In this document: in pieces, positions 1-22,805 of the stretch
How positions within the stretch are numbered: the first letter of the stretch is position 1
Layout of the letters: every line of letters starts with the position of its first letter
Position numbers and translations under genes: made by a program
Virus record (IMG/VR): IMGVR_UViG_3300023180_000424
Coordinates: 1 to 22,805 of that record
Direction: 5' to 3' (one strand)
Length of the DNA stretch: 22,805 bases
Source: a virus
Notes under the pieces: model-generated
Told to the model about the DNA's origin: nothing
The model's input: the letters and a program-made list of their open reading frames with translations, nothing else
Databases searched by the model: none

Positions 1-2
1 GA

Positions 3-1730
3 TCTTCAGGAACTTCAGGATCATCAGGTTCTTCTGGATCTTCAGGATCATCAGGATCTAGTGGCTCTTCAGGATCTTCAGGATCTTCAGGTTCCTCAGG
101 AACTTCAGGATCTAGCGGTTCTTCAGGATCTAGCGGTTCTTCTGGATCGTCAGGAACCTCAGGTTCTTCTGGTTCTTCAGGTTCTTCAGGATCTAGTGGT
201 TCTTCTGGATCTTCTGGATCTTCAGGATCATCAGGATCTAGTGGTTCTTCTGGATCTTCAGGATCATCAGGATCTAGTGGCTCTTCAGGATCTTCGGGAT
301 CCTCAGGTTCCTCAGGAACTTCAGGATCTAGCGGTTCTTCAGGATCTAGCGGTTCTTCTGGATCGTCAGGAACCTCAGGTTCTTCTGGTTCTTCAGGATC
401 TTCAGGATCTTCGGGATCTAGTGGTTCTTCTGGATCTTCAGGATCATCAGGTTCTTCGGGTTCTTCGGGTTCTTCAGGATCTAGTGGCTCTTCAGGATCT
501 TCAGGAACTTCAGGATCATCAGGATCTAGTGGCTCTTCAGGATCTTCAGGTTCCTCAGGAACTTCAGGATCTAGCGGTTCTTCAGGATCTAGCGGTTCTT
601 CTGGATCGTCAGGAACCTCAGGATCCTCAGGTTCTTCAGGTTCTTCAGGTTCTTCAGGTTCTTCAGGATCTAGTGGTTCTTCTGGATCTTCAGGATCATC
701 AGGTTCTTCGGGTTCTTCAGGGTCTAGTGGCTCTTCAGGAACTTCAGGATCTAGCGGTTCTTCAGGATCATCAGGTTCTTCGGGTTCTTCGGGTTCTTCA
801 GGATCTAGTGGCTCTTCAGGATCTTCAGGAACTTCAGGATCATCAGGATCTAGTGGCTCTTCAGGATCTTCAGGATCATCAGGTTCTTCAGGCACAAGTG
901 GATCTTCAGGATCATCAGGTTCTTCAGGATCATCAGGTTCTTCAGGCACAAGTGGATCATCAGGTTCCTCTGGTGTATCTGGAGCCTCTGGAACTTCAGG
1001 TTCTAGTGGATCTTCCGGATCATCAGGATCTAGTGGTTCTTCTGGTTCATCAGGAACTTCAGGATCCTCAGGTTCATCAGGTTCTTCAGGATCTAGCGGT
1101 TCTTCAGGAACATCAGGTTCTTCTGGATCTAGTGGTTCTTCTGGATCATCAGGATCTTCAGGTTCTTCAGGCTCTAGTGGTTCTTCTGGATCTTCAGGAA
1201 CTTCAGGATCTTCAGGTTCATCAGGATCTAGTGGATCTTCAGGATCTTCAGGTTCCTCTGGATCATCAGGATCATCAGGATCGTCAGGTTCTTCAGGTTC
1301 TTCAGGTTCTTCAGGTTCTTCAGGTTCTTCAGGCACGAGTGGATCTTCTGGATCTTCAGGATCGTCAGGTTCTTCTGGTTCTTCAGGTTCTTCAGGATCT
1401 AGTGGTTCTTCTGGATCTTCAGGGTCAAGTGGATCTTCAGGATCTTCAGGTTCCTCAGGAACCTCAGGATCTAGCGGTTCTTCAGGATCTAGTGGTTCTT
1501 CTGGATCTTCAGGGTCAAGTGGATCTTCAGGATCTTCAGGGTCTTCAGGAACATCAGGTTCTTCTGGATCTAGTGGTTCTTCTGGATCATCAGGATCTTC
1601 AGGTTCTTCTGGTTCTTCTGGTTCATCAGGTTCCTCTGGTTCATCAGGTTCCTCTGGTTCTTCAGGATCATCAGGTTCTTCAGGAACATCAGGTTCTTCA
1701 GGATCTAGTGGTTCTTCCGGAACATCAGGT
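3..1730 (+). repeat. Gly-Ser-Ser/Thr coding repeat block 1 (9-bp unit)
   Basis: There are 192 consecutive Gly-X-Y triplets, with X and Y nearly always Ser or Thr. The exception is a Gly-Val-Ser-Gly-Ala-Ser stretch near 971-990. All six Ser codons are mixed, so protein composition is conserved more strongly than the DNA. Higher-order duplications are nevertheless present: 441-550 recurs without a mismatch at 765-874, and a motif beginning GTTCCTCAGG recurs at 91, 307 and 550. All these offsets (324, 216 and 243 bp) are multiples of 9, so copy-number changes stay in frame. Confidence 0.95.
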
Positions 1731-3686
1731 ATTGATGGCACAAATTATTTAGGATTCTTTTCTGAATACGATTCAAGCAGTACGAACATTACAGTAGCAC
1801 CATCATCCCAACAATTTGTATTAAATAATGCAAGCTTAAACAGTGTTACAGGTGCTGCGATTAGTACAACTTCTACTAATTCAGTAAATGTTACTAAGAC
1901 GTTAGATATCTTCGATGAGATAGCAAACCCTGGTCCAAGAAGAGGAATTATACAGTTCTTAACCCCAGGAAATTCTCAATTTGCATCATATTATGTAACC
2001 AGTGCAACAAAAAATCCTCCAACTAATAGTACATGGTTTCAACTAGGTTTAGAGTATATAGATAGAGGTGGATCTGGATCCCTTACCGATGGTGAAGATT
2101 ATTGGGTAGGACTTAATGTAATTGGTGATGCAGGAACATCAGGATCTTCTGGATCGTCAGGCTCTAGTGGTTCTTCAGGTTCTTCAGGAACCTCAGGATC
2201 CTCAGGCTCTAGTGGTTCTTCTGGATCTAGTGGTTCTTCAGGCTCTAGTGGATCTTCGGGAACATCAGGCTCTAGTGGTTCTTCGGGATCATCAGGATCA
2301 TCAGGAATTTCTGGTACTTCAGGATATGTAATAGACAATACCTGGGATTGGACAACATCCGGAGGATCTCCAGCAAGTGGAGAAGCTAGAAATAGCTCCG
2401 GATCTAATTTACCTGCATCACCCTTTGTCTTATTGATAAATGAAAACCCCATATCAGGACCTAATTATGTAAACATTTTTAATAGTTTAGGCAACGGAAC
2501 CCTATGGAAAATAACGCGATTAGTTGGTGGATCTAACGTACTTTATTATACGCAAATCTCAGTTGGTGTTGATAACGGATCATATTGGGAATTTGATTTA
2601 GATCATTTGTCAGGTACAGGATGGTCGCCTACTACAGGTGATGATATATTAATTCAAATTGCAGGAGTAGGAGCACCAGGAAGTTCTGGAACATCAGGTT
2701 CTTCTGGATCATCAGGCTCTAGTGGTTCCTCAGGATCTAGTGGTTCTTCAGGATCCTCAGGATCCTCAGGTTCTTCTGGATCATCAGGCTCTAGTGGTTC
2801 TTCTGGTTCATCAGGAACATCAGGATCGTCAGGCTCTAGTGGTTCCTCAGGATCTAGTGGTTCTTCAGGAACATCTGGTTCTTCTGGATCATCAGGAAGT
2901 TCTGGTTCTTCTGGATCCTCAGGAAGTTCTGGTTCTTCTGGATCATCAGGAAGTTCTGGTGTTGGAGGTAGTGTAGATAGATTTAATGGGTATGATGATG
3001 GTACTTTAAATGTAACTAATTTCTCTACCCAAGGTACCACAGCAGATATTAAAGTTTCGCATACACAATATGGTTTAGACCCTTCAACCAACGCCTTAAT
3101 TTACGATCATACGAATGATACTGCTCTTATTGAGATTCTGCAAGATGGATATTATATAATTAGCTCTAATGTAAATTACATTGTTGGAGCAAGTAGGAGT
3201 GGTTCTAGATCAACAATGCAGCAAAATCTCTATATTAATGGTGCTGTTGTAGATTCTTCTAAGTCTGATACTTACTCAAGAGGACAGCTTTATAATGATG
3301 AAATTAATACGCTAACCACTGGTTATTTCTATTTAAATACGAATGATACTATAAGAATGGAGGTAAATGCAGCACGGATGGATAGTAGCGGTACTGGAAC
3401 TGTAGCGATCACTGATGCTGTTATTAATATTGCTCGGATATCAGGAGCAGCTGCTGCTTCTGGTTCTGACGGAGCACAGGGAGCAGCAGGAGCAGCAGGA
3501 GCACAAGGAGCACAAGGAGCAGCAGCAACAATTCCGTGTGATGGAACGTGTACATCTACTGAAGGTGGTAACCCAACATTGTACTACGGGACTAATCCTG
3601 ACGTTTATCTTGCAGAACCTAATGTGTGGTTCCGAATTGATTGTGATGGAACAACATATAACGTTCCTGGATACTCTTGTGAGTAA
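3..3686 (+). CDS. Giant Gly-Ser-Ser collagen-like tail fibre/adhesin, 5'-truncated
   Basis: The frame is open from the window edge to TAA at 3684-3686, about 1,227 codons, with no start codon before a TTG at 2433. The gene therefore begins upstream and 2433 is not its start. Glycine occurs every third residue in three blocks (3-1730, 2133-2324, 2679-2960), with the other positions almost all Ser or Thr. Globular modules lie between them (1731-2132 and 2325-2678). The third module (2961-3461) has the spaced hydrophobic strands and 'DGYY...NG...LNTNDTIRMEV' pattern of a C1q/TNF-like jelly roll. A short Gly-Ala-Gln collagen stretch (3462-3524) and a tip with four Cys follow. Repeated collagen-like stalks with globular heads are known in phage fibres and bacterial adhesins. 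Host-binding fibre is inferred from this architecture and the phage context. It lies directly upstream of a glycosyltransferase block that may modify its serines. Confidence 0.85.
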   Translation, partial: SSGTSGSSGSSGSSGSSGSSGSSGSSGSSGSSGTSGSSGSSGSSGSSGSSGTSGSSGSSGSSGSSGSSGSSGSSGSSGSSGSSGSSGSSGSSGSSGSSGSSGSSGTSGSSGSSGSSGSSGSSGTSGSSGSSGSSGSSGSSGSSGSSGSSGSSGSSGSSGSSGSSGSSGTSGSSGSSGSSGSSGSSGTSGSSGSSGSSGSSGSSGTSGSSGSSGSSGSSGSSGSSGSSGSSGSSGSSGSSGSSGSSGTSGSSGSSGSSGSSGSSGSSGSSGSSGSSGTSGSSGSSGSSGSSGSSGSSGTSGSSGSSGSSGSSGSSGTSGSSGSSGVSGASGTSGSSGSSGSSGSSGSSGSSGTSGSSGSSGSSGSSGSSGTSGSSGSSGSSGSSGSSGSSGSSGSSGSSGTSGSSGSSGSSGSSGSSGSSGSSGSSGSSGSSGSSGSSGSSGSSGTSGSSGSSGSSGSSGSSGSSGSSGSSGSSGSSGSSGSSGSSGTSGSSGSSGSSGSSGSSGSSGSSGSSGSSGTSGSSGSSGSSGSSGSSGSSGSSGSSGSSGSSGSSGSSGSSGSSGTSGSSGSSGSSGTSGIDGTNYLGFFSEYDSSSTNITVAPSSQQFVLNNASLNSVTGAAISTTSTNSVNVTKTLDIFDEIANPGPRRGIIQFLTPGNSQFASYYVTSATKNPPTNSTWFQLGLEYIDRGGSGSLTDGEDYWVGLNVIGDAGTSGSSGSSGSSGSSGSSGTSGSSGSSGSSGSSGSSGSSGSSGTSGSSGSSGSSGSSGISGTSGYVIDNTWDWTTSGGSPASGEARNSSGSNLPASPFVLLINENPISGPNYVNIFNSLGNGTLWKITRLVGGSNVLYYTQISVGVDNGSYWEFDLDHLSGTGWSPTTGDDILIQIAGVGAPGSSGTSGSSGSSGSSGSSGSSGSSGSSGSSGSSGSSGSSGSSGSSGTSGSSGSSGSSGSSGSSGTSGSSGSSGSSGSSGSSGSSGSSGSSGSSGVGGSVDRFNGYDDGTLNVTNFSTQGTTADIKVSHTQYGLDPSTNALIYDHTNDTALIEILQDGYYIISSNVNYIVGASRSGSRSTMQQNLYINGAVVDSSKSDTYSRGQLYNDEINTLTTGYFYLNTNDTIRMEVNAARMDSSGTGTVAITDAVINIARISGAAAASGSDGAQGAAGAAGAQGAQGAAATIPCDGTCTSTEGGNPTLYYGTNPDVYLAEPNVWFRIDCDGTTYNVPGYSCE
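2133..2324 (+). repeat. Gly-Ser-Ser/Thr coding repeat block 2
   Basis: A shorter run of 64 Gly-X-Y triplets in the same frame as block 1, flanked by two globular modules. An Ile replaces one Ser near its 3' end. It is probably a short collagen-like connector between globular parts of the fibre. Confidence 0.93.
2679..2960 (+). repeat. Gly-Ser-Ser/Thr coding repeat block 3
   Basis: A run of 94 Gly-X-Y triplets leads into the C1q/TNF-like head. Its 3' end carries a tandem unit reading Gly-Ser-Ser-Gly-Ser-Ser-Gly-Ser-Ser, encoded with 'ggaagttctggttcttctgg' at about 2899, 2926 and 2953 (the last copy incomplete). That is a local 27-bp periodicity, a sign of recent expansion. Confidence 0.93.
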
Positions 3687-3698
3687 TAGATTAATGCT

Positions 3699-3953
3699 AT
3701 GAAGGAAGTACCTAAGGTAGACATGTCACTTTTACAAATGGCCAATAATTTTGTTGGAGGTGAAGAAATTTCGAGAATTGAAATTATCAATAAGGAGGGT
3801 ATTGTTTTAAATACATATGATTATTCCAAATCTACTGGTGATCATATTCCGAGTGTGATTTTTTCTATGTCCGATATTCTAGGTAATTCTAATTCGATAG
3901 TTAGTAACCCCAATACAACTCAAAAGGTTAATGAATTCCCAGGATTACTTTAA
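3699..3953 (+). CDS. Small protein of unknown function (84 aa)
   Basis: I do not recognise this protein. It starts 12 bases after the fibre stop codon and is followed by a 59-base gap before the dioxygenase-like gene. It has a plausible N-terminal amphipathic segment (residues 9-25), then a short strand-rich region containing the Ile-Glu-Ile-Ile and Gly-Ile-Val-Leu runs, then a Ser/Asn-rich tail. No signal peptide or membrane segment is evident. There is no Shine-Dalgarno sequence, as for most genes here. A fibre-associated accessory or chaperone role would fit its position, but nothing in the sequence demonstrates it. Confidence 0.65.
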   Translation: MKEVPKVDMSLLQMANNFVGGEEISRIEIINKEGIVLNTYDYSKSTGDHIPSVIFSMSDILGNSNSIVSNPNTTQKVNEFPGLL

Positions 3954-4012
3954 ATAATTGAAAACCTTTGGATTGTTTGGCGTATAAGAATAAATCATTA
4001 TTGTAATTCTAT

Positions 4013-4591
4013 ATGAAGGTCCAAACAATCATTATAGACGATTTCTATAAAAATCCCGATGATGTAAGATCATTTGCTTTAGCCCAAGAATTTAGTGCTC
4101 GTGGAAATTACCCCGGACAAAGAACGGTATCTTTTTTAGCAGATAACGTAAAGAATTCTATTCAGGATATAATTAGACCTTATGGCGGAGAGGTTACTTG
4201 GTGGGGTGATGATTCAACTGGGTCCTTTCAATATACAGTAGCTGCTGACAGATCCTGGATCCATAGCGATGACACAACAGATTGGGCAGGAGTTCTTTAT
4301 TTAACACCAGATGCACCACTTTCTGCAGGTACTGGTCTTTTTAGGCATAAAGAAACTGGTCTTAATAGGTGGAGAAATTCTGAGCATCCTGATGAGGTAG
4401 CTAAAGCAGCCCCTGTTAATATAGAATCCCAGGATATGACCAAATGGGAAATGGTTGATAAAATTGGAAATATTTATAATAGGCTGGTAATTTATCGGGG
4501 TGATTTATTTCACGTTTCTTTGGACTATTTCGGACTGGATAAAAATGACGGTAGGCTATTCCAGGTTTTCTTTTTCAACACGGAAAAATAA
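4013..4591 (+). CDS. Putative 2-oxoglutarate/Fe(II)-dependent dioxygenase (DUF6445/prolyl-hydroxylase-like)
   Basis: The 192-residue protein has the layout of a double-stranded beta-helix oxygenase. An HxD pair (His84, Asp86) follows the Trp-Ile-His segment, a distal His lies at 167 in 'GDLFHVSLD', and Arg181 falls at the spacing expected for the 2-oxoglutarate carboxylate. The stretch between, with 'AGVLYLTPDAP' and 'GTGLFRHKETG', is typical of the phage and bacterial DUF6445/prolyl 4-hydroxylase-like family as I recall it. Such enzymes hydroxylate protein or small-molecule substrates using O2 and 2-oxoglutarate. The stop codon directly abuts the ATG of the next glycosyltransferase gene, indicating co-translation. 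The substrate is unknown. Fibre hydroxylation before glycosylation is one possibility, although the Gly-Ser-Ser blocks contain essentially no proline. Confidence 0.7.
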   Translation: MKVQTIIIDDFYKNPDDVRSFALAQEFSARGNYPGQRTVSFLADNVKNSIQDIIRPYGGEVTWWGDDSTGSFQYTVAADRSWIHSDDTTDWAGVLYLTPDAPLSAGTGLFRHKETGLNRWRNSEHPDEVAKAAPVNIESQDMTKWEMVDKIGNIYNRLVIYRGDLFHVSLDYFGLDKNDGRLFQVFFFNTEK

Positions 4592-5890
4592 ATGCTAATT
4601 GTTAAAAGACCGACTGCTATTGTTTTTGGTTGGGATAAGCCTAGTGGCAATTATGAATTCGTTACCACAGTTTATTCTTCGGTAGAAAATAACATGCAGT
4701 GGGTGAATTTGATTTCTATTGGCATAATTGATGTAGACAATAATGTACTATCGGATTTAAACATCAAACACACTCCTGATGTTTTCGTTTTTATTGGTAG
4801 TAAGTATGATCAAATACATTCGCATTTTGATAGAATGGTTATAGAATACGATCAAATCCCAGATCCTGACACACTTGCTAATGATGTGGTGGTTAAGGCA
4901 GTAGACGTTCGTACAAACCCACACATTCCTCTTTTCAGCATTTTTACCCCTGCTTTCAAAACGGGGGAGAGAATATTTAGAACTTATCAAGGAATAGTAG
5001 ATCAGAGTGAAACAGATTGGGAGTGGGTTGTTGTAGACGATTCGCCTTCAGACCATAACGACTTATGGCATGATCTTCAAAAGATAGCTTCCAGGGATTT
5101 AAGGGTTAAACCATATAGAATAACACCAAATACCGGGGGATTTGTAGGAATGGCTAAGAAGAGGGCCTGCTCTTTGTCTAGTGGTAAATGGTTGGTAGAA
5201 CTTGACCATGATGACTATTTATTGGATAATTGCTTGGCTAAAATTAAATCTGCTAGCGATAAATTCCCTGACGCTGGATTCATTTACAGTGACTGTACAG
5301 AAATGTTTGAGAATGGGAAATTTAGAAGATATGGTAGCAAAGATGAAAAATACGATGGTAATTTCTATGGTGTTGAAGGCAACAACTTTAACTTTGGGTA
5401 TTCTGGACACTCTTGGGTTAATATAAAGGGTAAAAGATATCTAACACATCACTATCCCTCTATAAATCCGATTACTATTAGATTTAATATTTCAATGCCA
5501 AATCATGTTAGGGCTTGGAGGTCTGATATTTATAAAAAAATCGGAGGGCATGCTGAAAGCCTACCAATAGCGGATGATCTAGAATTAATCATTAAAACTT
5601 TTCTCGAAACAAGGATAGTCCATATTAAGGATTTGCTATATATTCAATATAGTAATGGCTCCGGGACTGTTAGCTATAACTCTTTCGAAATTAATAGAAT
5701 TTCTAGAATTTTGAAAGAGAAATATAACAAAGCAATACATAACAGGATAATTGATTTGGGGTTCCATGATTGGGAGTGGGACGAAGAAAAGAGAACTAAT
5801 AGGCACCAAGAGGCTATAATGAATAGTGACCTTAGTGATATAAAGTTCTGGGAGGATGAACAGGTTTTGAATTATGTATATGATGAATAA
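4592..5890 (+). CDS. Family 2 (GT-A) glycosyltransferase with extra N-terminal domain
   Basis: The catalytic domain spans roughly residues 112-380. It begins with the strand 'PLFSIFTPAFKTG', followed by Asp149-Asp150 of the nucleotide-binding 'VVVDDSPSD' segment and a DxD-type metal-binding cluster, Asp205-His-Asp-Asp208, after 'GKWLVEL'. Asp-Asp near 'PIADDLELI' is consistent with the catalytic-base region. GT2 enzymes transfer a sugar from a nucleotide-diphosphate donor. The first ~110 residues are not part of the GT-A fold and look like a separate alpha/beta domain of unknown role. The ATG follows the upstream TAA with no gap. The last 17 bases overlap the next gene. No membrane segments are seen, so a cytoplasmic enzyme is likely. 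Donor and acceptor cannot be read from sequence. Confidence 0.85.
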   Translation: MLIVKRPTAIVFGWDKPSGNYEFVTTVYSSVENNMQWVNLISIGIIDVDNNVLSDLNIKHTPDVFVFIGSKYDQIHSHFDRMVIEYDQIPDPDTLANDVVVKAVDVRTNPHIPLFSIFTPAFKTGERIFRTYQGIVDQSETDWEWVVVDDSPSDHNDLWHDLQKIASRDLRVKPYRITPNTGGFVGMAKKRACSLSSGKWLVELDHDDYLLDNCLAKIKSASDKFPDAGFIYSDCTEMFENGKFRRYGSKDEKYDGNFYGVEGNNFNFGYSGHSWVNIKGKRYLTHHYPSINPITIRFNISMPNHVRAWRSDIYKKIGGHAESLPIADDLELIIKTFLETRIVHIKDLLYIQYSNGSGTVSYNSFEINRISRILKEKYNKAIHNRIIDLGFHDWEWDEEKRTNRHQEAIMNSDLSDIKFWEDEQVLNYVYDE

Positions 5891-7076
5891 GAGGGCTAAA
5901 ATTTGCATGAATGCCATGGTAGCTAATGAATCCCGTGTTATTCTGAGAATGCTTGAATCCTGCTATCGATACATCGATTATTGGGTTATACAAGATAACG
6001 GCTCTACTGATGGTACCCAAGGTCTTATTAGAAATTTCTTTTCTCAAAAGGGGATACCTGGATACCTGTATGAAACTGAATGGCAATATCCTGGATTTAA
6101 TCGGGATCACACTTTGCAAGAATGTTTAAAAGCTGATCATGGTTGTGATTGGATTTTAAGGATGGATGCAGATGAACAACTGGCTGTTGATGATAATTTT
6201 GATTGGTCTTTGATTAACGACACATCTATTCAAAGTTTTAATATTACCGCTCAGGACCCGGGTGGAATATATTATAGAACTTGGCTTTGGAATGCAAAAT
6301 TGCCATGGTATTTCAAGCACGACAAAAGGCATGAGACAATTTATCTTTCTGGTCACAAAGAAGGGGAGGGTAATTTTCAGGTAATTAACTTACCCCGTGG
6401 GTTTAGACATATCATTACAAATGACGGTAAAACTTGGGAAGACCCTTTAAAGTTTTTAAATGATGCTCTTTTACTTGAAGCTGATCAGGTTTGTTCTGGG
6501 AAGATAAAAGAGGATGATTACCATCTTTTCTATATTGGTAAAAGTTATGCTGATATTTATCAGAATGGAAATCTCCCGTTTGGCAAAAATCATAGTGATG
6601 AATACGCTAGAAGGACTATATATTACCTTGAACATTATGTGAGAAGGAAATTTCCAGTTTATGATAATGACTCACCTCCTACAGTGTTTGATGAGATGTG
6701 TTACCTTTCTATAGTTCTTATCGGACAAGCACATAGATTTATAGGAAATCGAGATCTCGCATATAAAAGGCTTGAACAAGCTGACTGGTATTGTCCGGAT
6801 AGAAACGAGCACTGGGTTATTTTGGCAGAGATGCTCTTGGAGGACCAAAAATTTCATAGGATGTATGAAATAACATCAATGCTCATGAGAGATGATAGGA
6901 TATGCCCATTTCCTAGATTTCATTTTTTACTCTGGACCTCTTGTTACAAGGATACCTCTGATTATGTAGAATTTCTGTACAAAGAATCGATGAAATTTGT
7001 GGAACTAATTGAAACCCGAACAGACCAAAATAATTTAAAAACTATGGAAGACGCTTACTTTCCTGGTGAAATTTAG
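5874..7076 (+). CDS. Family 2 (GT-A) glycosyltransferase, cytoplasmic
   Basis: The N-terminal half carries classic GT2 signatures: 'ICMNAMVANE' as first strand, 'QDNGSTDGT' (residues 40-48) for nucleotide binding, and the DxD motif Asp98-Ala-Asp100-Glu after 'CDWILRM'. The middle has His/Trp-rich substrate-pocket sequence ('GGIYYRTWLWN', 'HETIYLSGHKEG'). The C-terminal 160 residues are helical and resemble TPR-like repeats, as in related bacterial enzymes ('IGQAHRFIGNRDLAYKRLEQ'). Three in-frame ATGs lie at 5874, 5880 and 5883. The first gives a 17-base overlap with the preceding gene, and the later ones remain possible. The gene probably acts with the neighbouring transferases on one glycan. 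Acceptor unknown. Confidence 0.87.
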   Translation: MYMMNKRAKICMNAMVANESRVILRMLESCYRYIDYWVIQDNGSTDGTQGLIRNFFSQKGIPGYLYETEWQYPGFNRDHTLQECLKADHGCDWILRMDADEQLAVDDNFDWSLINDTSIQSFNITAQDPGGIYYRTWLWNAKLPWYFKHDKRHETIYLSGHKEGEGNFQVINLPRGFRHIITNDGKTWEDPLKFLNDALLLEADQVCSGKIKEDDYHLFYIGKSYADIYQNGNLPFGKNHSDEYARRTIYYLEHYVRRKFPVYDNDSPPTVFDEMCYLSIVLIGQAHRFIGNRDLAYKRLEQADWYCPDRNEHWVILAEMLLEDQKFHRMYEITSMLMRDDRICPFPRFHFLLWTSCYKDTSDYVEFLYKESMKFVELIETRTDQNNLKTMEDAYFPGEI

Positions 7077-7086
7077 ATAAAAACAT

Positions 7087-7362
7087 ATGGAAAACAATCA
7101 AACAAAAATAACATCTGAGGAGTTGGAAAAAATTAACTCCTTAAGAACCGAGATTTTAGAAAATGTTGAATCGATAGGTAGACTGAATATTAGAAAGCAT
7201 TTTCTGGTAAAAGAACTCGAGCCAATAGAGGCAACTCTGATATCATTGCTTCAAAAGTCAGAAGAACTGGACACACAGGAGAAGGATGTAATAGATGAGA
7301 TCATTCAGAAATATGGGGAAGGCCAGTTAAATTTTGAAACTGGTATTTACACTAAAGAATAA
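7087..7362 (+). CDS. Small coiled-coil protein (91 aa)
   Basis: Almost the whole protein is predicted coiled coil by eye. Heptad-like spacing of Leu/Ile runs through residues 10-70, with many Glu and Lys, then a conserved-looking C-terminal tail 'KYGEGQLNFETGIYTKE'. Similar short proteins ending in a 'YG.G..N.ETG.(Y/F)T' tail occur in T4-like phages near structural genes, in my recollection, but I cannot assign a function. It starts 10 bases after one glycosyltransferase and ends with tandem TAA codons directly before the next, so it belongs to the same transcript. It could be an oligomerisation or scaffold partner for the glycosyltransferases, or a fibre-assembly factor. Both are inferred from context only. 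Confidence 0.7.
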   Translation: MENNQTKITSEELEKINSLRTEILENVESIGRLNIRKHFLVKELEPIEATLISLLQKSEELDTQEKDVIDEIIQKYGEGQLNFETGIYTKE

Positions 7363-7365
7363 TAA

Positions 7366-8418
7366 ATGAAAGAGATTGAGGCTTTAAGAAAAACCAAATA
7401 TGAATTGGTAAGAACAATCAATTCTATACAAAAAACATTGGATGAAAAAACCGGTGGAAAAAAGAGAATTCTTTTCGTTGCTCCACATCTTTCAACTGGA
7501 GGAATGCCTCAATACCTGTACAAAAAAATAGAGTCTTTTAACGAAGAAGCTGAAGTTTATTGCATACAATATAACAATACATCGGAGGAATATGTTGTAC
7601 AGAGAAATAGGATAAAGGAAAGGATTGGTTCTAGATTCCATTGTTTGGGGGAAGATAAGACAGAGATACTTGATTTAATTGATAGAATTTACCCTGACGT
7701 TATCCATTTTGATGATTTTGTTGAATTTTTTGTAGACCCGTCGATTATTGACAAAATATATGCACTGGATAGACCATATTGCATAGTTGAAACTTGCCAC
7801 AGCTCAAATATTTCCCCATCAGATAAGATATATTGTCCGGATAAACTGGTTATGGTAAATCAATGGATGTGTAACAAATTTAAAGATCTTGGTGTTCCGA
7901 CAGACATTTTAGAATACCCAATTGAGGATTTTAAAAGACCTGATAGAAAATCTGCCTTAGAGAGTCTTGGTCTAGATCCAAACAAAAAGCATGTAATAAA
8001 TATCGGTTTATTCACACCAGGTAAAAACCAAGGTGAGCTTATAGAGCACGCTAGAAATCTCATTGACTACCCAATACAATTTCACTTTATAGGAAATACT
8101 GCACCAAATTTTCAAAGCTATTGGGAACCACTTTTAGAAACACTACCTGATAATTGCAAATTATGGGGTGAAAGAGATGATGCGGATCTTTTCTATAGTG
8201 CGGCTGACCTTTTTGTTTTTACCTCTAATTGGGAGTTAAATCCCATTGTTATAAAGGAGACTCTTTCATGGAAACTACCGATTTTAATGAGAAGACTTGA
8301 TCCATACATGGATTCTTATGATCAGAATCCATTGGTAAGCTATCTTAGCCCTAGCGGTGCTTTTTTAGATATACCTGCAGATACGGAAAAAATTAAGGAC
8401 ATATTAGATTTAAGATGA
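7366..8418 (+). CDS. GT-B glycosyltransferase, family 4-like
   Basis: The first 30 residues form a short helical, coiled-coil-prone extension. The GT-B N-domain starts at 'KRILFVAPHLSTGG' (about 33-46), including the Gly-Gly loop typical of GT4. The C-domain starts near 'HVINIGLFTPGKNQGE', where a GT4 enzyme has its donor-binding 'G.....KG' segment. The EX7E-type acidic pair is Glu290 and Glu298 in 'WELNPIVIKE'. GT4 enzymes are retaining transferases using nucleotide sugars. At 350 residues it is within the family range. The start codon abuts the TAA of the coiled-coil gene, and its stop overlaps the next start as ATGA (8415-8418). Acceptor and donor cannot be determined from sequence. Confidence 0.85.
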   Translation: MKEIEALRKTKYELVRTINSIQKTLDEKTGGKKRILFVAPHLSTGGMPQYLYKKIESFNEEAEVYCIQYNNTSEEYVVQRNRIKERIGSRFHCLGEDKTEILDLIDRIYPDVIHFDDFVEFFVDPSIIDKIYALDRPYCIVETCHSSNISPSDKIYCPDKLVMVNQWMCNKFKDLGVPTDILEYPIEDFKRPDRKSALESLGLDPNKKHVINIGLFTPGKNQGELIEHARNLIDYPIQFHFIGNTAPNFQSYWEPLLETLPDNCKLWGERDDADLFYSAADLFVFTSNWELNPIVIKETLSWKLPILMRRLDPYMDSYDQNPLVSYLSPSGAFLDIPADTEKIKDILDLR

Positions 8419-9596
8419 AAAATAGAGGCTTAAAAGTTTATGAGAGCTTAAAAAAAGCGGACTTTGTAAGGTTTAGACACCCCTACACTTTTGAACTTAC
8501 TTTTGATAATGGTGCTAATGTTGATTGCATAGGACCAAATAATGCTAAACCTTGTACAATAAAGTTCATGGATTTAAGTACTGGTACATATGGGTATACA
8601 GGTGAAATTTCTGCTGGACTTTTTACAAGGCTTTATAGAAAATGGTTTACTCCTTGGAGATTAGAGGCTTACGATAATGATGAATTAATCTACCAGAGAG
8701 ATCTGGAAGACGTAATTAGTGAGGAAAAAGTTTGTATTAGTGTTGATAGCAACTCACTTGGTGACACTCTAGCTTGGATGCCCGTCATAGAAAAATTCAG
8801 AAGAAAATATGACTGTGACCTCTATGTTACTACATTTTGGAATGAGCTTCTTGCTAACTATTATCCTTCCATAAGGTTTAGATCACCCGGGTCAAGAGAG
8901 ATCAATACAAAAATTACATTTGGTGTGGGGTGGTATGACGAGAATGACCGCGATAGACATAGGAGGGATCCTAGAGCTATTTCGTTACAGCAGGTTGCTG
9001 GGGATATTTTAGGAATAGATGTTGAAGGTGACCTATTAAACGAAAGTGTACCACTAACAATACAAAACACAAACTCAACTATTGACGGAAAGTATGTGTG
9101 TTTGGCTATGGATTCTACCGCTAATGCTAAACATTGGCACTATGAGGACGGCTGGCAGAAGATTACCGATTATTTAAATTCAATAGGTTATAAGGTTGTT
9201 GTTGTACAAAAGCAGGGAACAAATTTAAATGGAGTGATTGACAAAACTGGAGATATTGATATTTTACAAAGAGCCATTGACATTTATCACTCCGATTTCT
9301 TTATTGGAATAGGGTCTGGTCTAAGCTGGCTTGCTTGGTCACTACACAAGCCAGTTGTAATGATATCTGGTTTTTCGGATCCCGCGTGTGAATTTTCTAC
9401 TAAAAACTATAGAATCATAAACCGCGATGTCTGCCATGGTTGCTTTAGTGATACCTCAATAAAATTTGATAAGGGGGATTGGAATTGGTGTCCGAGGTTA
9501 AAGGATACCGAAAGGATGTTTGAATGTACAAAAACAATTACCCCAGAGGTTGTTCAAACCTATATCGACGATCTGATACAAAATCACCTATCTTAA
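8415..9596 (+). CDS. Autotransporter-type protein O-heptosyltransferase (BAHT/TibC-like)
   Basis: The C-terminal region matches the bacterial autotransporter heptosyltransferase family (TibC, Aah; GT9-related) closely. It has 'SGLSWLAWSLHKPVVMISGF', then a CxxC (Cys340, Cys343), 'WCPR' (Cys359) and 'FEC' (Cys371), giving C-x2-C-x15-C-x11-C. In TibC a four-Cys cluster binds iron. 'SLGDTLAWMP' (114-123) contains Asp117, equivalent to the proposed catalytic base. An N-terminal beta-rich domain (about 1-100) precedes the GT-B core, as in the family. Characterised members transfer heptose from ADP-heptose to serines of surface adhesins. Here the gene closes the glycosyltransferase cluster downstream of a Ser-rich fibre. 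It overlaps the preceding gene by four bases. No ADP-heptose synthesis gene is in the window, so the donor would come from the host or another locus, and the sugar may not be heptose. Confidence 0.88.
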   Translation: MKNRGLKVYESLKKADFVRFRHPYTFELTFDNGANVDCIGPNNAKPCTIKFMDLSTGTYGYTGEISAGLFTRLYRKWFTPWRLEAYDNDELIYQRDLEDVISEEKVCISVDSNSLGDTLAWMPVIEKFRRKYDCDLYVTTFWNELLANYYPSIRFRSPGSREINTKITFGVGWYDENDRDRHRRDPRAISLQQVAGDILGIDVEGDLLNESVPLTIQNTNSTIDGKYVCLAMDSTANAKHWHYEDGWQKITDYLNSIGYKVVVVQKQGTNLNGVIDKTGDIDILQRAIDIYHSDFFIGIGSGLSWLAWSLHKPVVMISGFSDPACEFSTKNYRIINRDVCHGCFSDTSIKFDKGDWNWCPRLKDTERMFECTKTITPEVVQTYIDDLIQNHLS

Positions 9597-9665: not shown

Positions 9666-12221
9666 ATGGCTTTTTACCCAGAAAATAGATTTCCAAAAAA
9701 AGGTATCCCCGTTTATAACGGCAACGGCGATCAGAGGGATCTTTCGGATCCTAGATTTAGATACCAAGACAATTTGGAGAATACTACCAAGGTTTTTCAC
9801 CAGAGTACAGATAACTATTTTGGAACCACTGGAGCTGCTATGGCACGTGCTGAGCAACTTGGTTGTAATGGTTATCACACAGCTCTTGCTGACGATGGGG
9901 TTTACTATTACTTACCATGTTCTGATGCTACCTGGTATGCTGAAAGAATACAGCAATTCGAAAGCTCATTAAATTTCACATACATAGGTAATTATAGGGT
10001 TCTCACTTGGGATAGCCCATTTAACTATGTACAAGCCTTCAATGGGTGGATAATAGAAACAGCAGGTGCTGTTTTGGGTGATCCTGTAAATCTTGGTGAT
10101 CCAACAGCAGCTATTCCAAATGACATTGCAATTGATTTTAGATATTCTGTTGACGGGAAAAGTTGGTCCCTTTGGGCTAATGTTGGAACTGCATTAACTG
10201 GATTTTCTCAGGGTTATACCTCCAACAACGATTCGACAATCTTCTCAATTCCGCTTGATCCTTCAAAATCATTTTACCCGGAATTTAGATTTACTTCCGT
10301 TGTAGTAAATACGGACGGAACACTGGCTTATGAGACAGATGAACCTATAGATCCTTCAATAGTAATCCTTGATTTCGATCTTGATCTTACCTATGCTACT
10401 GGACCTAGTGGACCTTCTGGTTCAATAGATAACTTGGTTATTAATAGACCTGTACCAAATTGCTCTAATGAGAAGTCAAACAGACCAGTTGTTTTTGATG
10501 ATTGCAACTACACTTTTAATCCCTATGCAATAAACAAGGCTGTTAACCTGTATAAGGATTTAAGCTTGGTTGTAAACAAGGTATTTGGGTTTGAGACAAA
10601 TTATTATTCAGTGCAACCACAAGCTAGAGGTAAAGACGTAGTGTTGAAGGAGTATACTTTATTTGATGTTGTAGATGAACAATGTGTGAAGGTAATGGTT
10701 CCTTCAAATCAATTTCCAGATAACCGAACAAATTATGATCCCTTCGGAATCCAGTTTGACGAACCGTTCGAGATTCATATAGATAAGACCTATTTCGAAA
10801 ACATTTTTGGAAGAGGCTCACAACCAAGGAAGAGAGATATTATTTACTTCCCTTTAACCAATAGGATCTATGAAATAAATTCTACCTACTTGTTCAGGGA
10901 TTTCATGTATTCTCCGGTTTACTACAAAATAGAGCTTAAAAAATATAGTCCTAAGTCTAATACGTATTTCAAAGACCCTGCTTACAAAGAGGAATTAGAT
11001 GGAATTGCACTTACTACAGAAAAGCTATTTGGTGCAGAGGTTGAAGCTGAAGAGCAAAAAATAGCTAAGCCAGAGCAATACTCCGATAGTACGCAAAGAA
11101 GACAAGAGGACCCAACCAGGTCTTATATCTATAAGAATCTTCCTATAGTTGGGTATGATCTCAATAACAACTGGACAATAGTGTTTAACAACTACTACGA
11201 TATGTCGGATGCTTTTGTTTCTGATTCAGAATTCGTATATCAGCCTAACAAGTATCGCGAAGCACTTAGGTATAAAAACAGACCTCTATTGGAGAGCGAT
11301 GGTGAGGTATCCTACACCTGTTGGTTTAGTTTGAAGAACTATATTAATGAGGATAGCTTGGCTAAAAAACCATACTCTCCAGCACCAATCACAAAAGTCT
11401 CAGAGGATGCTAACCAAATTTTATACAGCTCTCACCCATATAAACACAATTTAACCCCATTTAGGCAATTTTCGGATAACCCGGAAGGGTATGTTGCAAT
11501 TAGTACTGATGCTAACCATTCGGGAGGATTCAAGGTTCTAACTACTCCTGATGAGTTTAAATTTTCTGTTGCAAATCCAAATCTTCCTTATGCTAAGAAT
11601 ACTGCAAATTGGAAAATGCAAAAGGCACAAGCAAGGAATCTAATTGATGGAACCTATATCGATGGCTCTGGTTTGTTAAAAGGCATGAGGATAGACTTAG
11701 TGCATTCTGGTACCAACGATGCTGCAAATAATAATTATGTACAGCAAGGAAGCATTGAGATTATCTTAAACGATCTTACGTATGATTCCAGATTGCAATT
11801 TACTCCAGAGCAGGGAGAGTGGTATGGATTGGTTGTTAATATAAGTAACAAGTATAAGCAGATGGGAATTAACATCTGGAAAATGTCGTATGATCCAACA
11901 AATCCAGGTGCACAACAATCATCAGATTTAGTTAAAGTGCACGAAGATTATAGGACGTTAACCAAATCTTACATTTTTGATGCTCCCTCTGATATTGAGA
12001 CAAACGTAAACAACCCATTCTATGGGACGGATAATAACGCTTACAAGATTTACACATCCCCGCTCCTTTTATCGAATGTAAGACTGTTTAAGAACATGAT
12101 AGATATTGATAAACAATCAATTGTCCTTAACCAGAACACTGTAAGGGATGAACAACTAGCATATATTATAGATAACGCTAAACCACAATTGATCCTACCT
12201 AAATTCGCAAGAAATAGGTAA
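9666..12221 (+). CDS. Large virion structural protein, gp14-like neck region plus LamG-like C-terminus
   Basis: The 851-residue protein appears modular. The N-terminus has 'AMARAEQLGCNGYHT...YYYLPC', a motif I associate with phage virion proteins. A short Gly-Pro-Ser linker follows near 10399-10420. The middle (about residues 265-450) includes 'FGIQFDEPFEIHIDKTYFE' and 'KRDIIYFPLTNRIYEIN', with spacing reminiscent of T4 neck protein gp14. The C-terminal part (about 540-835) has beta-strand spacing and the 'SNVRLFKNMIDI' ending of LamG/concanavalin-like domains. It lies just upstream of the small terminase, where T4 carries neck genes 13-14-15. T4 gp14 is far shorter (~256 aa), so this would be a fusion with decoration domains. 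The start ATG 9666 follows the A/T-rich leader. Structural role likely, neck assignment tentative. Confidence 0.6.
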   Translation: MAFYPENRFPKKGIPVYNGNGDQRDLSDPRFRYQDNLENTTKVFHQSTDNYFGTTGAAMARAEQLGCNGYHTALADDGVYYYLPCSDATWYAERIQQFESSLNFTYIGNYRVLTWDSPFNYVQAFNGWIIETAGAVLGDPVNLGDPTAAIPNDIAIDFRYSVDGKSWSLWANVGTALTGFSQGYTSNNDSTIFSIPLDPSKSFYPEFRFTSVVVNTDGTLAYETDEPIDPSIVILDFDLDLTYATGPSGPSGSIDNLVINRPVPNCSNEKSNRPVVFDDCNYTFNPYAINKAVNLYKDLSLVVNKVFGFETNYYSVQPQARGKDVVLKEYTLFDVVDEQCVKVMVPSNQFPDNRTNYDPFGIQFDEPFEIHIDKTYFENIFGRGSQPRKRDIIYFPLTNRIYEINSTYLFRDFMYSPVYYKIELKKYSPKSNTYFKDPAYKEELDGIALTTEKLFGAEVEAEEQKIAKPEQYSDSTQRRQEDPTRSYIYKNLPIVGYDLNNNWTIVFNNYYDMSDAFVSDSEFVYQPNKYREALRYKNRPLLESDGEVSYTCWFSLKNYINEDSLAKKPYSPAPITKVSEDANQILYSSHPYKHNLTPFRQFSDNPEGYVAISTDANHSGGFKVLTTPDEFKFSVANPNLPYAKNTANWKMQKAQARNLIDGTYIDGSGLLKGMRIDLVHSGTNDAANNNYVQQGSIEIILNDLTYDSRLQFTPEQGEWYGLVVNISNKYKQMGINIWKMSYDPTNPGAQQSSDLVKVHEDYRTLTKSYIFDAPSDIETNVNNPFYGTDNNAYKIYTSPLLLSNVRLFKNMIDIDKQSIVLNQNTVRDEQLAYIIDNAKPQLILPKFARNR

Positions 12222-18257: not shown

Positions 18258-18812
18258 ATGGCTGGTTTACCACATTACCAAAATTCCATAAACTCGGTTA
18301 ATAAATTTGAGCCGGTTTACCTTAACCAATTTGAGGTAAATGTTATACCACCTGCGGCTGTTTCTGGAGGTCCAGTGCTACTAGAACAAGTTGTTTCTGT
18401 AAGTGGTTTGGATGTGGATAAAAACCCTAGCTTTGTATCTCAGAAATATAAGTTTGCAAAGAGGAACTATGCTGGAGGTAAACCAGATACAACAACTCTG
18501 GATCTTGGTTTAAAGTTTACTGTCAACCTTGACGATGCTAATTCAATGTACGTCTTTAAGACGATGAGACAGTGGACTGATTTAATTTACAATCCATTGA
18601 CAGGGGCGCAAGGAATTAAAGCAGATTATACTGGGACAATCGTTGTGTCTGTCTTCAATAAAAATGGTGATGTATTTAGGAGAATTACTCTTAAGGATTG
18701 CTTCCCACTAAAAGCAATTGATCCTATGGAGCTAGAATACGTAAATGGTACTACGCTCTATGAGATTAATATGACTTGGGCAGTTGATTACTGGGACGAT
18801 TTATTCCTATAA
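18258..18812 (+). CDS. 19: Tail tube protein (T4 gp19-like), copy A
   Basis: The 184-residue protein has the tube-family fold signature: 'FEPVYLNQFEVNVIPP' at the start, then a central beta-hairpin region, then 'QWTDLIYNPLTGAQG', 'GTIVVSVFNKNGDVFRRITL' and the final 'INMTWAVDYWDDLFL'. T4 gp19 is 163 aa. Hexamers of this protein stack to form the rigid inner tube through which DNA passes. Its place directly after the sheath matches T4. A late-promoter-like box and an AGGA sequence precede it, which suits a highly expressed protein. It is clearly paralogous to the next gene, sharing near-identical 'LIYNPLTGA' and 'GDVFRRITL' segments. Confidence 0.9.
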   Translation: MAGLPHYQNSINSVNKFEPVYLNQFEVNVIPPAAVSGGPVLLEQVVSVSGLDVDKNPSFVSQKYKFAKRNYAGGKPDTTTLDLGLKFTVNLDDANSMYVFKTMRQWTDLIYNPLTGAQGIKADYTGTIVVSVFNKNGDVFRRITLKDCFPLKAIDPMELEYVNGTTLYEINMTWAVDYWDDLFL

Positions 18813-18829
18813 AATATAACAAAGCATAA

Positions 18830-19408
18830 ATGGCAGGTTTACCACATTTTAACAACTCTAAGGCAGCAAGGAATAACTACGAGCCGGTTTTCTTAAACCA
18901 GTTTGAGGTTCTTATAACTCCACCTAACGGTATCAATCTTGCTAATACTACATTTAAGGGTGAGAATATACTTACTCAGCAAGTGAAGAGTATTTCTGCC
19001 TTACAAGTTGATATACAGCCAGCTGATGCTGTTACCCAATATTACAAGTTTGCTGAAAGAAGGTATGCTGGTGGTGAACCATCTACATCTGATGTACAGT
19101 TTAATATGTCTTTCGAAGTGAACCTTAATGAGGACAATTCTATGGTTCTTTATAAGGTTTTAAGACAATGGTCTGATTTAATTTACAATCCATTAACTGG
19201 AGCAATGGGTCTTAAAAGAGATTATGTTGGTTCTATGGTAGTTTCTGTTTTTAATAAACAAGGTGATGTCTTCAGGAGGATAACACTGAACAATTGTTTC
19301 TTGGTAGAGCCAATTACTCCAATGAACCTTTCTTACGATATCGGAGATGCTCTTTATACCATTGATACTACATGGAAGTCAGATTACTGGAACGACCTAT
19401 TCCTTTAA
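18830..19408 (+). CDS. Tail tube protein paralogue (T4 gp19-like), copy B
   Basis: This is a diverged tandem duplicate of the preceding tube gene, 17 bases away. Both begin MAGLPH, share 'NQFEV', 'YKFA.R.YAGG.P', 'QW.DLIYNPLTGA', 'DVFRRITL' and end 'DYW(D/N)DLFL'. Copy B has an eight-residue longer N-terminal half ('NLANTTFKGENILTQQVKS'). It may form part of the tube itself, cap or initiate it (as T4 gp48/gp54 do), or be a second tube subunit in a mixed tube. The sequence cannot decide. No separate promoter box is seen between the copies, so they are likely co-transcribed with copy A. Confidence 0.85.
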   Translation: MAGLPHFNNSKAARNNYEPVFLNQFEVLITPPNGINLANTTFKGENILTQQVKSISALQVDIQPADAVTQYYKFAERRYAGGEPSTSDVQFNMSFEVNLNEDNSMVLYKVLRQWSDLIYNPLTGAMGLKRDYVGSMVVSVFNKQGDVFRRITLNNCFLVEPITPMNLSYDIGDALYTIDTTWKSDYWNDLFL

Positions 19409-22266: not shown

Positions 22267-22805
22267 ATGGAAGAAGCATTTATTGATCCCTCTGATTTTT
22301 TCACCAAAGAAGATCTAGCAAAAGGAGATTATTGGATAGCAAGTCCAAGCCTTAGCAGAGTTATTACCTCGGATGATAATTTCAAAGAAATAGACGAAAC
22401 CTTTTATTCCATTAAGGATAGGAAGATGGATAGGGTCTATCTAGAAATGGCAAAGGTGTGGGCTACTAATTCTTATTGCGAAAGGATGAAAGTTGGTAGT
22501 CTTATTGTGAAAGATAAATCTATTATATCTGACGGCTATAACGGTTCACCCACAGGTTTTCCAAACGTCTGCGAAGATTCATCTCACGTCACTTTACCTC
22601 ATGTATTACATGCAGAGGCTAATGCGATTACTAAGTTGGCTAAGAGTACACAAAGCTCTGATGGTGCGACACTTTATGTTACAGTATCTCCTTGCTTTGA
22701 ATGCTCTAAACTTATTATTCAGAGTGGGGTAAAAAGATTAGTGTTTAAGGAGTTATATAGAAAACTTGAATCGCTTAAGTTTTTATTCGACGCTGGAATT
22801 GAACT
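22267..22805 (+). CDS. dCMP deaminase, 3'-truncated by window
   Basis: Deoxycytidylate deaminase converts dCMP to dUMP, feeding dTMP synthesis for phage DNA replication. The zinc site is complete: His115-Ala-Glu117 ('HAE') and Pro142-Cys143-Phe-Glu-Cys146 ('PCFEC'). The flanking 'VGSLIVKDKSIISDGYNGSPTGF' region (residues 77-99) and 'STQSSDGATLYVTVSPC' match the family closely, including bacterial versions from Bacteroidota and T4 Cd. The first ~53 residues precede the usual family start. A second in-frame ATG at 22426 begins just before 'DRVYLEMAKVWA', the typical N-terminus, so either start is possible. The frame is open to the window end at about residue 179. This is the first nucleotide-metabolism gene after the tail module. 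Confidence 0.92.
   Translation, partial: MEEAFIDPSDFFTKEDLAKGDYWIASPSLSRVITSDDNFKEIDETFYSIKDRKMDRVYLEMAKVWATNSYCERMKVGSLIVKDKSIISDGYNGSPTGFPNVCEDSSHVTLPHVLHAEANAITKLAKSTQSSDGATLYVTVSPCFECSKLIIQSGVKRLVFKELYRKLESLKFLFDAGIE

Follow-up and report, generated by a model that had tools for sequence, protein, structure and literature searches.

The window analysed here, the whole 22,805-base IMG/VR contig IMGVR_UViG_3300023180_000424, begins with a serine-rich, collagen-like fibre gene followed by a run of glycosyltransferase genes, and we wondered whether these enzymes act on the fibre beside them. The contig carries the structural module of a T4-like phage, recognisable by genes for a neck protein, for a large terminase of the T4 type and for a sheath-like protein that falls under its family cut-off. 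With a probability of about 0.78, we favour the answer that the cassette glycosylates the virion fibre: a TibC-type enzyme would prime serines of the Gly-Ser-Ser stalk, the other transferases would extend the glycan, and the glycan would stabilise or coat the stalk. That the fibre is modified, with which sugar, in what sequence of steps and to what end is inferred from family membership, retained residues, gene order, gene fusion and association.

All genes of the cassette lie on the plus strand. The fibre gene (3–3686), its 5' end truncated by the contig start, encodes a Ser/Thr-rich, nearly Pro-free collagen-like protein. It is followed by p84, a small open reading frame (ORF) matching no family at 0.001 (3699–3953); a DUF6445 protein with a 2-oxoglutarate (2OG)-Fe(II) dioxygenase-like fold and motif (4013–4591; PF20043, 4e-15); two GT2-family glycosyltransferases (4592–5890, with a DHD motif at residues 205–207, and 5874–7076, with DAD at residues 98–100); the small conserved ORF p91 (7087–7362), which is kept in related phages; a GT4-family glycosyltransferase (7366–8418; Glycos_transf_1, 1.8e-10, EX7E motif from residue 290); and a TibC/Aah-type protein O-glycosyltransferase, the predicted priming enzyme (8415–9596). 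A T4-like neck or head-closure protein, assigned by family matches (9666–12221), forms the right border. Successive gaps from the fibre to the TibC-type ORF are 12, 59, 0, -17, 10, 3 and -4 bp. Gene types, order, common strand and near-zero spacing (gaps of -17 to 59 bp) were thus as a preliminary description of this DNA had them; its list of genes stood, with p84 and p91 left out. In Pfam, the two GT2 ORFs matched Glycos_transf_2 (1e-10) and Glyco_tranf_2_4 (5.6e-7). Both GT2s and the GT4 retain DXD or EX7E motifs. As p91 persists in related phages whose loci have no adjoining TibC-type gene (L150, L152, L154–L156), it probably stands outside the sugar pathway.

What would such enzymes find on the fibre? 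Repeat counts revealed three blocks of Gly-Ser-Ser and Gly-Thr-Ser triplets, set between globular parts: block 1 (9–1745) with 193 triplets, block 2 (2124–2330) with 23 and block 3 (2670–2975) with 34. Their X and Y positions are 99%, 89% and 93% Ser/Thr, respectively, in agreement with the earlier claim that about two thirds of all residues in the blocks are Ser or Thr. A fourth run has 7 triplets of Gly-Ala-Gln/Ala. Together, the runs comprise 257 Gly-X-Y triplets with 457 Ser, 29 Thr, 1 Pro and 0 Lys. The Pfam collagen family PF01391 matched the part of the gene at 1731–3686 (1.2e-24; 86.2 bits against a cut-off of 27.2), and the rod, with almost no proline in its runs, may form a triple helix. 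PHROG tail fibre matches to this truncated gene sit largely on the repeats. A complete fibre from a related phage (L544:8612-17146; 2845 amino acids) has a single run of 561 triplets, 98% Ser/Thr, and a PF13884 Peptidase_S74 chaperone domain near its end. With the collagen triple helix rising 0.286 nm per residue, this run would measure ∼0.48 micrometre if triple-helical. A published value in use is 2.9 Å per residue (PMC3368898). Several contigs of the window's clade, including the window itself (1–1745), start within fibre repeats, probably through breakage of short-read assembly there.

The ORF at 8415–9596 scored 279.5 bits with TIGR04414 hepto_Aah_TibC (cut-off 200; 3.9e-83) and aligned with solved TibC (4rap) over residues 49–386 at 1e-57. 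In TibC, D110 is catalytic, Cys 339/342/358/370 form an iron finger and Pro300 fixes donor stereochemistry (PMC4358343). D110 aligned with D117 of the window enzyme and the four cysteines with C340/C343/C359/C371; the catalytic Asp and all four Cys were invariant in 21/21 and 36/36 aligned rows, the 36 having been hand-picked to be mutually unlike. The TibC/Aah-type assignment made earlier is therefore borne out by both score and residues. No autotransporter family was found among the window ORFs searched, and the enzyme's neighbour is a collagen-like fibre; for these reasons we do not call it an autotransporter heptosyltransferase. Rather, it is a TIGR04414 homologue predicted to work like a bacterial autotransporter heptosyltransferase (BAHT) on another substrate. 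Just 4 of 50,697 phage records hold a relative of the protein; one of these is from a cultured phage and none from a pelagimyophage by name. Glycosylation of DNA was set aside, as the TibC-type family acts on proteins, going by family calls alone.

Could the transferases instead remodel host lipopolysaccharide (LPS) or its O-chain against superinfection, the fibre adjoining them because both belong to a variable host-recognition region? GT2 and GT4 families often make polysaccharides, and this role has been proposed for the glycosyltransferases of the pelagimyophage host-recognition cluster (PMC7029224). However, the priming candidate belongs to a protein O-glycosyltransferase family and missed the cut-offs of the LPS heptosyltransferase I (24.6 bits against 185.3) and II (11.8 against 134.6) models, and the reading as an LPS heptosyltransferase was set aside on these scores. 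Moreover, general family searches detected no flippase or polymerase family among the cassette ORFs searched. We therefore consider LPS remodelling unlikely.

If the fibre is the target, Ser/Thr-rich collagens and TibC-type genes should keep company in other phages. Contigs were drawn by DNA pattern for three kinds of collagen, blind to glycosyltransferases, and whole records were then searched for TIGR04414. The contigs are among the matches listed by the pattern scan, and those of at least 30 kb were retained. The Gly-Ser-Ser pattern gave 119 newly fetched loci (L110 matched too), of which 78 had at least 10 triplets and at least 60% Ser/Thr and 43 lay on contigs of at least 30 kb. For Gly-Pro-X, with 108 confirmed loci, we used the 50 longest of 53 contigs of at least 30 kb. 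For Gly-Ala-Gln, the matches listed gave 79 new loci (∼40 more were fetched), and 41 on contigs of at least 30 kb were used, with L475 (same contig as L438) and L234 (in the Gly-Ser-Ser set) excluded; these 41 include two without a real collagen (L441, L478) and one that is Gly/Thr-rich (L455).

Among these matches, the TibC family scored over its cut-off in 22/43 Gly-Ser-Ser, 9/41 Gly-Ala-Gln and 1/50 Gly-Pro-X contigs, and the single Gly-Pro-X contig also bears Ser/Thr collagens. After removal of near-copies by matching repeat statistics and scores (L214, L248, L252, L266), 18/39 Gly-Ser-Ser contigs remained positive (Fisher test, 3e-7 against Gly-Pro-X and 0.03 against Gly-Ala-Gln). Some Gly-Ser-Ser contigs, L224 among them, are kin of the window. 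The co-occurrence, which the preliminary description had named as a check, was thus strong (22/43 against 1/50). The 91 contigs drawn for the other two collagen kinds include 6 that match a strict Ser/Thr-collagen pattern; this pattern and the TibC gene were found together in 5, the collagen alone in 1, the TibC gene alone in 5 and neither in 80 (p 3e-5). Without G105 and G124, close kin of the window, the counts were 4/1/4/80 (p 1.4e-4). One of the five contigs scored as TibC-only, G127, does have a Gly-Thr-Ser collagen that the strict pattern overlooked. In 12/19 non-redundant Gly-Ser-Ser contigs that carry the TibC gene, no more than 10 kb separates it from the known collagen, where 5.3 such contigs were expected at random (p 0.0008). 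Starting from the enzyme, 37 of 50 TibC-bearing records, hand-picked to be mutually unlike, matched the strict Ser/Thr-collagen pattern, and in the fetched flanks of 41 TibC loci (clusters at 90% identity) we found a Ser/Thr-rich run in 24, another collagen in 2 and none in 15.

Such an association might also arise by hitch-hiking, if large aquatic phages simply inherited both genes by descent. Many of the phages are relatives of one another, the entire block came to the window's clade by inheritance, phage type was not matched across the three contig sets, and the sources are, by our impression, mostly aquatic. Against this, the association persisted among contigs of at least 60 kb (5/1/2/34, p 1.4e-4), and among Pro-rich-collagen contigs of at least 100 kb the gene occurred in 1/6, that one also carrying Ser/Thr collagens. 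We regard hitch-hiking as very unlikely.

We next turn to the window's own kin, a set of 80 relatives by large terminase (TerL), many of whose loci are near-copies. Usable loci, defined by a neck gene with at least 2 kb before it, numbered 52. In 46/52 a TibC-type gene precedes the neck gene by no more than 5 kb, and in 40/52 by no more than 150 bp; a GT4 was also present in 42 of the 46. Three of four kin contigs without a TibC-type gene also lacked a Ser/Thr-rich collagen. Among 36 TibC-type ORFs, 21 contain a GT4 domain (Glycos_transf_1) within the same polypeptide, in support of the view that GT4 and TibC work together. Genes preceding this pair differ between kin: in L545 (4943–10322) it is preceded by another GT4, an FkbM methyltransferase, a sulfotransferase, an adenosine phosphosulfate (APS) kinase and a cytidylyltransferase-like gene, and in L546 (9760–12253) a sulfotransferase and a GT2 lie between it and the fibre. 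We infer that GT4-TibC is the more constant core and that the genes before it occupy a variable tailoring slot; the sulfotransferase, APS kinase and FkbM genes suggest that fibre glycans of the kin are sulfated or methylated. In the Microcystis phage Mel-JY01 (L002, PP395634.1), the GT4-TibC fusion at 4750–8430 is annotated 'methyltransferase FkbM', and a plus-strand Gly-Thr-Ser collagen ORF at 2–3049 is mostly overlain by coding sequences on the opposite strand. A literature search on this phage returned nothing.

The pairing extends beyond phages. A genome scan with the phage-type alignment found 8 relatives, of which two are phage contigs within metagenome-assembled genomes (MAGs; L537, L538) and one is an unplaced 7.5 kb contig with a Gly-Thr/Ser-Ser ORF of 27 triplets nearby (L533). 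The other five loci we judge cellular by their neighbours: a Schekmanbacteria MAG, a gammaproteobacterial MAG, a Polaromonas MAG and two Methylobacter. In 5/5, a Ser/Thr-rich Gly-X-Y ORF lay 13 to 5,099 bp from the enzyme; the farthest collagen-like ORF is that of L531, whose best stretch is under the PF01391 cut-off and reaches 40.8 bits when neighbouring stretches are included. Identified by their coordinates and by the length of the ORF, the PF01391 matches found genome-wide were confined to the enzyme locus in 4/5 genomes, and a simple estimate puts the chance of such closeness at 0.0004 to 0.0014 per genome. In a 369-genome sample of the class of Methylobacter luteus, the TibC family occurred in 2 genomes, M. 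luteus itself and G497; the latter has a Gly-Thr-Ser/Thr ORF 110 bp from the enzyme (PF01391 26.9 bits, just under 27.2). With this separately found copy, a Ser/Thr-rich collagen-like gene stands near 6/6 phage-like copies in cellular bacteria, and the same enzyme-collagen pair is borne by both a phage, Mel-JY01, and a bacterium, M. luteus. LPS remodelling would lead one to expect neither this link to collagen-like genes, of which the bacterial genomes have few, nor the link in phages to Ser/Thr-rich, not Pro-rich, collagens. By eye, several of the small bacterial collagen-like proteins have a lipoprotein-like start. Two classical copies of the enzyme have the classical partner: on an E. coli plasmid the gene overlaps an annotated autotransporter gene, and on a Paraburkholderia replicon it precedes a protein with 11 AIDA-stalk stretches. 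In a phylogenetic tree, these two autotransporter-type enzymes sit on a long branch and the window's clade stands beside L532 and L541 (support 98/91). Bacterial enzymes with a collagen beside them branch at three separate positions among the phages, although the deep forks are weak, and this too speaks against inheritance by descent as the source of the association.

The bacterial loci also bear on whether the enzymes might glycosylate another virion or host surface protein, with the collagen fibre a bystander. Mycobacteriophage glycans sit on capsid and tail tube subunits (PMC12619734), and in 7/19 contigs the collagen lies 15–115 kb from the TibC-type gene used for the measurement (in L254, a second copy is 44 kb away). 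By eye, though, we noticed no common neighbour in the bacterial loci other than the collagen-like gene, and the phage association tracks the Ser/Thr content of the collagen. A bystander fibre is, in our judgement, quite improbable.

The DUF6445 gene raises a further possibility. The protein has the motif expected of a 2OG oxygenase, with HxD (H84, D86) and H167 as the iron triad and R181 as the Arg for 2OG. Its AlphaFold model is modest (pLDDT, the predicted local distance difference test, 60.7), and its best Foldseek match was a Pseudomonas putida prolyl-4-hydroxylase (4j25, 7e-5), followed by other 2OG oxygenases. The dioxygenase-like gene noted earlier was thus recovered by both motif and fold, and the name 'minor coat protein' of PHROG 1644, the family it matches, sits poorly with the predicted fold. 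DUF6445 might hydroxylate fibre residues that a GT2 then glycosylates, this being the main pathway instead of serine priming. Mimivirus L230 hydroxylates and glucosylates collagen-like proteins (PMC9614988). Of the 34 kin loci that have both GT4 and TibC and 4 kb or more of sequence ahead of the latter, 20 contain DUF6445, and it recurs beside collagen, GT4 and TibC-type genes in G127. Yet GT4-TibC stands without it in the other 14/34, and the iron ligands are lost in 2 of 11 DUF6445 relatives (L020, L021). Because the runs of 257 triplets hold 1 Pro and 0 Lys, hydroxylation of the animal-collagen type is unlikely, and prolyl or lysyl hydroxylation of the repeats was set aside. As the main pathway, hydroxylation is accordingly improbable; the globular parts of the fibre or the glycan could be the substrate of DUF6445. 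In G127 (L569 3585–10688), an otherwise different phage, collagen, DUF6445, a small ORF, GT4 and TibC-type genes follow one another in the same order, and the cassette may therefore move as a block.

Several observations weigh against glycosylation of the fibre by its neighbouring enzymes. In the enzyme, TibC thumb residues F265/V266 align with T269/N270 beside gaps, and the position of Pro300 is Gly; because of this replacement the sugar donor is not readable from the sequence. Genes for making a heptose donor are scarce: among 35 records, GmhA scored over its cut-off in 1 and at E 1e-4 in 6, and RfaE domain II in 0 and at 1e-4 in 11. Phage-encoded donor genes are unnecessary provided the host supplies the donor. 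In one record (G034:C1:62580-62948), an RfaE domain II-related nucleotidyltransferase, under the cut-off, lies 18 bp from a TibC-type match (62967–64046) and is perhaps a donor-activating enzyme. As for the substrate, the fibre beside the enzymes in five kin (L012, L013, L017, L018, L024) is of the Gly-Ala-Gln kind with 12–28% Ser/Thr, at contigs that end there. No TibC gene over the cut-off was found in 21/43 Gly-Ser-Ser contigs, although 2 of the 21 show a lower-scoring match. Some of the contigs concerned are large and have clear Ser/Thr collagens, as do L213 (84 kb), L207 (75 kb) and L269 (67 kb), and contig fragments can explain just part of these cases. G079 and G181 likewise carry Ser/Thr collagens without a TibC-type gene; G079 (L567 7170–20000) has two large Gly-Thr-Ser/Gly-Ser-Ser fibres and no TibC-type match on its 68.8 kb contig. 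Gly-Ala-Gln controls bear the TibC gene more often (9/41) than Gly-Pro-X contigs, and the three contig sets were matched for neither habitat nor phage type. Conversely, the strict Ser/Thr-collagen pattern was missing in 13/50 TibC-bearing records. Nine of the 13 are shorter than 45 kb; Mel-JY01, one of the 13, does contain a collagen ORF, of 203 triplets at 80% Ser/Thr. The clearest exceptions are the TibC-bearing records LR756504 (636 kb), which had no strict pattern match, and L083 (162 kb), where no collagen was found within 17 kb on one side of GT4-TibC and 22 kb on the other.

Overall, the co-occurrence in phages and bacteria and the GT4-TibC fusions support decoration of the fibre by the phage's own enzymes. 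In the model we propose, the TibC-type enzyme would add the first sugar to many stalk serines in the host cytoplasm, before assembly; this sugar would probably be a heptose or another one from a nucleotide-activated donor of the host. The GT4 (7366–8418) would act together with the TibC-type enzyme, the two GT2s would lengthen the glycan, and optional enzymes would tailor it. As its purpose we favour the stabilisation of a collagen-like rod nearly devoid of proline, the fibre surface being shielded as a secondary effect; defence against proteases or altered adsorption would be equally compatible. A glycan standing in for proline fits, because Pro-rich collagens rarely (1/50) and Pro-free Ser/Thr collagens often accompany a TibC gene. 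Since the gene pairing recurs in many phages and some bacteria, phage fibres of this kind may often be sugar-coated. More tentatively, and as a possibility we hold somewhat short of even, there may be a widespread class of glycan-dependent, Pro-free collagens in both phages and bacteria, built as rods of Gly-Ser/Thr-Ser repeats, that fold or hold only after dense TibC-type O-glycosylation, with variable tailoring by sulfotransferase, methyltransferase and dioxygenase diversifying the fibre surface in phages.

The remaining features of the window concern the fibre tip and the structural genes. The globular fibre domain at 2967–3446 (plus strand) is probably a TNF/C1q-like jelly roll, going by a weak model (pLDDT 53.5, built from a two-sequence alignment) whose top Foldseek matches were TRAIL, 4-1BBL and the Bacillus exosporium proteins BxpB and ExsFA. 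The model is weak because no PDB sequence matched the domain and just one non-identical relative was found among 8 loci. Downstream of the neck gene lie the T4-type large terminase and then the sheath-like protein, which has one family match, under the cut-off. A tandem pair of ORFs ∼55% identical to each other (18258–18812 and 18830–19408) is present in the window and its kin; neither matched Pfam, and we presume them to be tube-like. Because the tube-like ORFs lack a Pfam match and the sheath-like match is under the cut-off, both names rest on T4-like gene order. The final ORF (22267–22803), truncated by the contig end, is deoxycytidylate deaminase-like (PF00383).

If the proposed reading is correct, large-phage glycosyltransferases, about whose function one usually has to guess, would gain a protein target in place of host LPS or phage DNA, and the TibC family would reach beyond autotransporters to take in collagen-like fibres and the small collagen-like proteins of bacteria. 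The stability of a proline-free collagen rod would become a testable question, and the cassette would supply a simple pair of enzyme and substrate with which glycosylated collagen-like rods could be produced.

How does the locus compare with known systems? We found no published description of a phage TibC-type/collagen pairing among open-licence papers. The nearest known counterparts of the enzyme, the TibC/AAH autotransporter heptosyltransferases, share its sequence family, the GT9-like catalytic domain, the catalytic Asp and the four iron-finger Cys, and their genes adjoin the likely substrate, as in the E. coli and Paraburkholderia examples. Their partner is a beta-helical autotransporter, whereas that of the window is a collagen-like fibre; the window enzyme also differs in being phage-encoded, in having a GT4 as partner or fusion, and in its changed thumb and Pro300 positions. 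On the substrate side, BclA of the Bacillus anthracis exosporium has a collagen-like stalk of Gly-Pro-Thr repeats that bears O-glycans and ends in a TNF/C1q-like tip. The window fibre would resemble it in its glycosylated collagen-like stalk, and the best solved matches of its own globular domain include exosporium BxpB/ExsFA, but the BclA repeats are Gly-Pro-Thr and on a spore and those of the window Gly-Ser-Ser and on a phage. EPclA of E. coli prophages also places a collagen domain in a phage-type tail fibre and forms a trimeric rod; in contrast to the window fibre, it is Pro-rich at X, and it is stable and unglycosylated as a recombinant protein (PMC3368898). Its authors name threonine glycosylation as another known collagen stabiliser (PMC3368898).

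Glycans placed on viral proteins by virus-encoded enzymes have precedents. Mycobacteriophages (Che8 and others) carry glycans on virion proteins and encode glycosyltransferases, but there the targets are capsid and tail tube subunits, and the excerpted text of both papers mentions no collagen fibre or TibC-type enzyme (PMC12619734, PMC11256854). Mimivirus L230, a virus-encoded 2OG hydroxylase and glycosyltransferase, works on the virus's own collagen-like proteins; it acts on lysine and unites both activities in a single protein whose transferase is GLT25D1-like (PMC9614988), whereas the window has separate enzymes and no Lys in its runs. A 2025 survey of large aquatic phages described four core glycosyltransferases and offered DNA, serotype or virion as targets (PMC12619734). 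In gene order, the nearest likeness is the pelagimyophage host-recognition cluster, situated between VrlC and gp14, the neck gene; there too, genes for tail fibres and for glycosyltransferases come ahead of the neck (PMC7029224). Those glycosyltransferases have been assigned to change of the host O-chain (PMC7029224), whereas the predicted target of the window's enzymes is the phage's own fibre.

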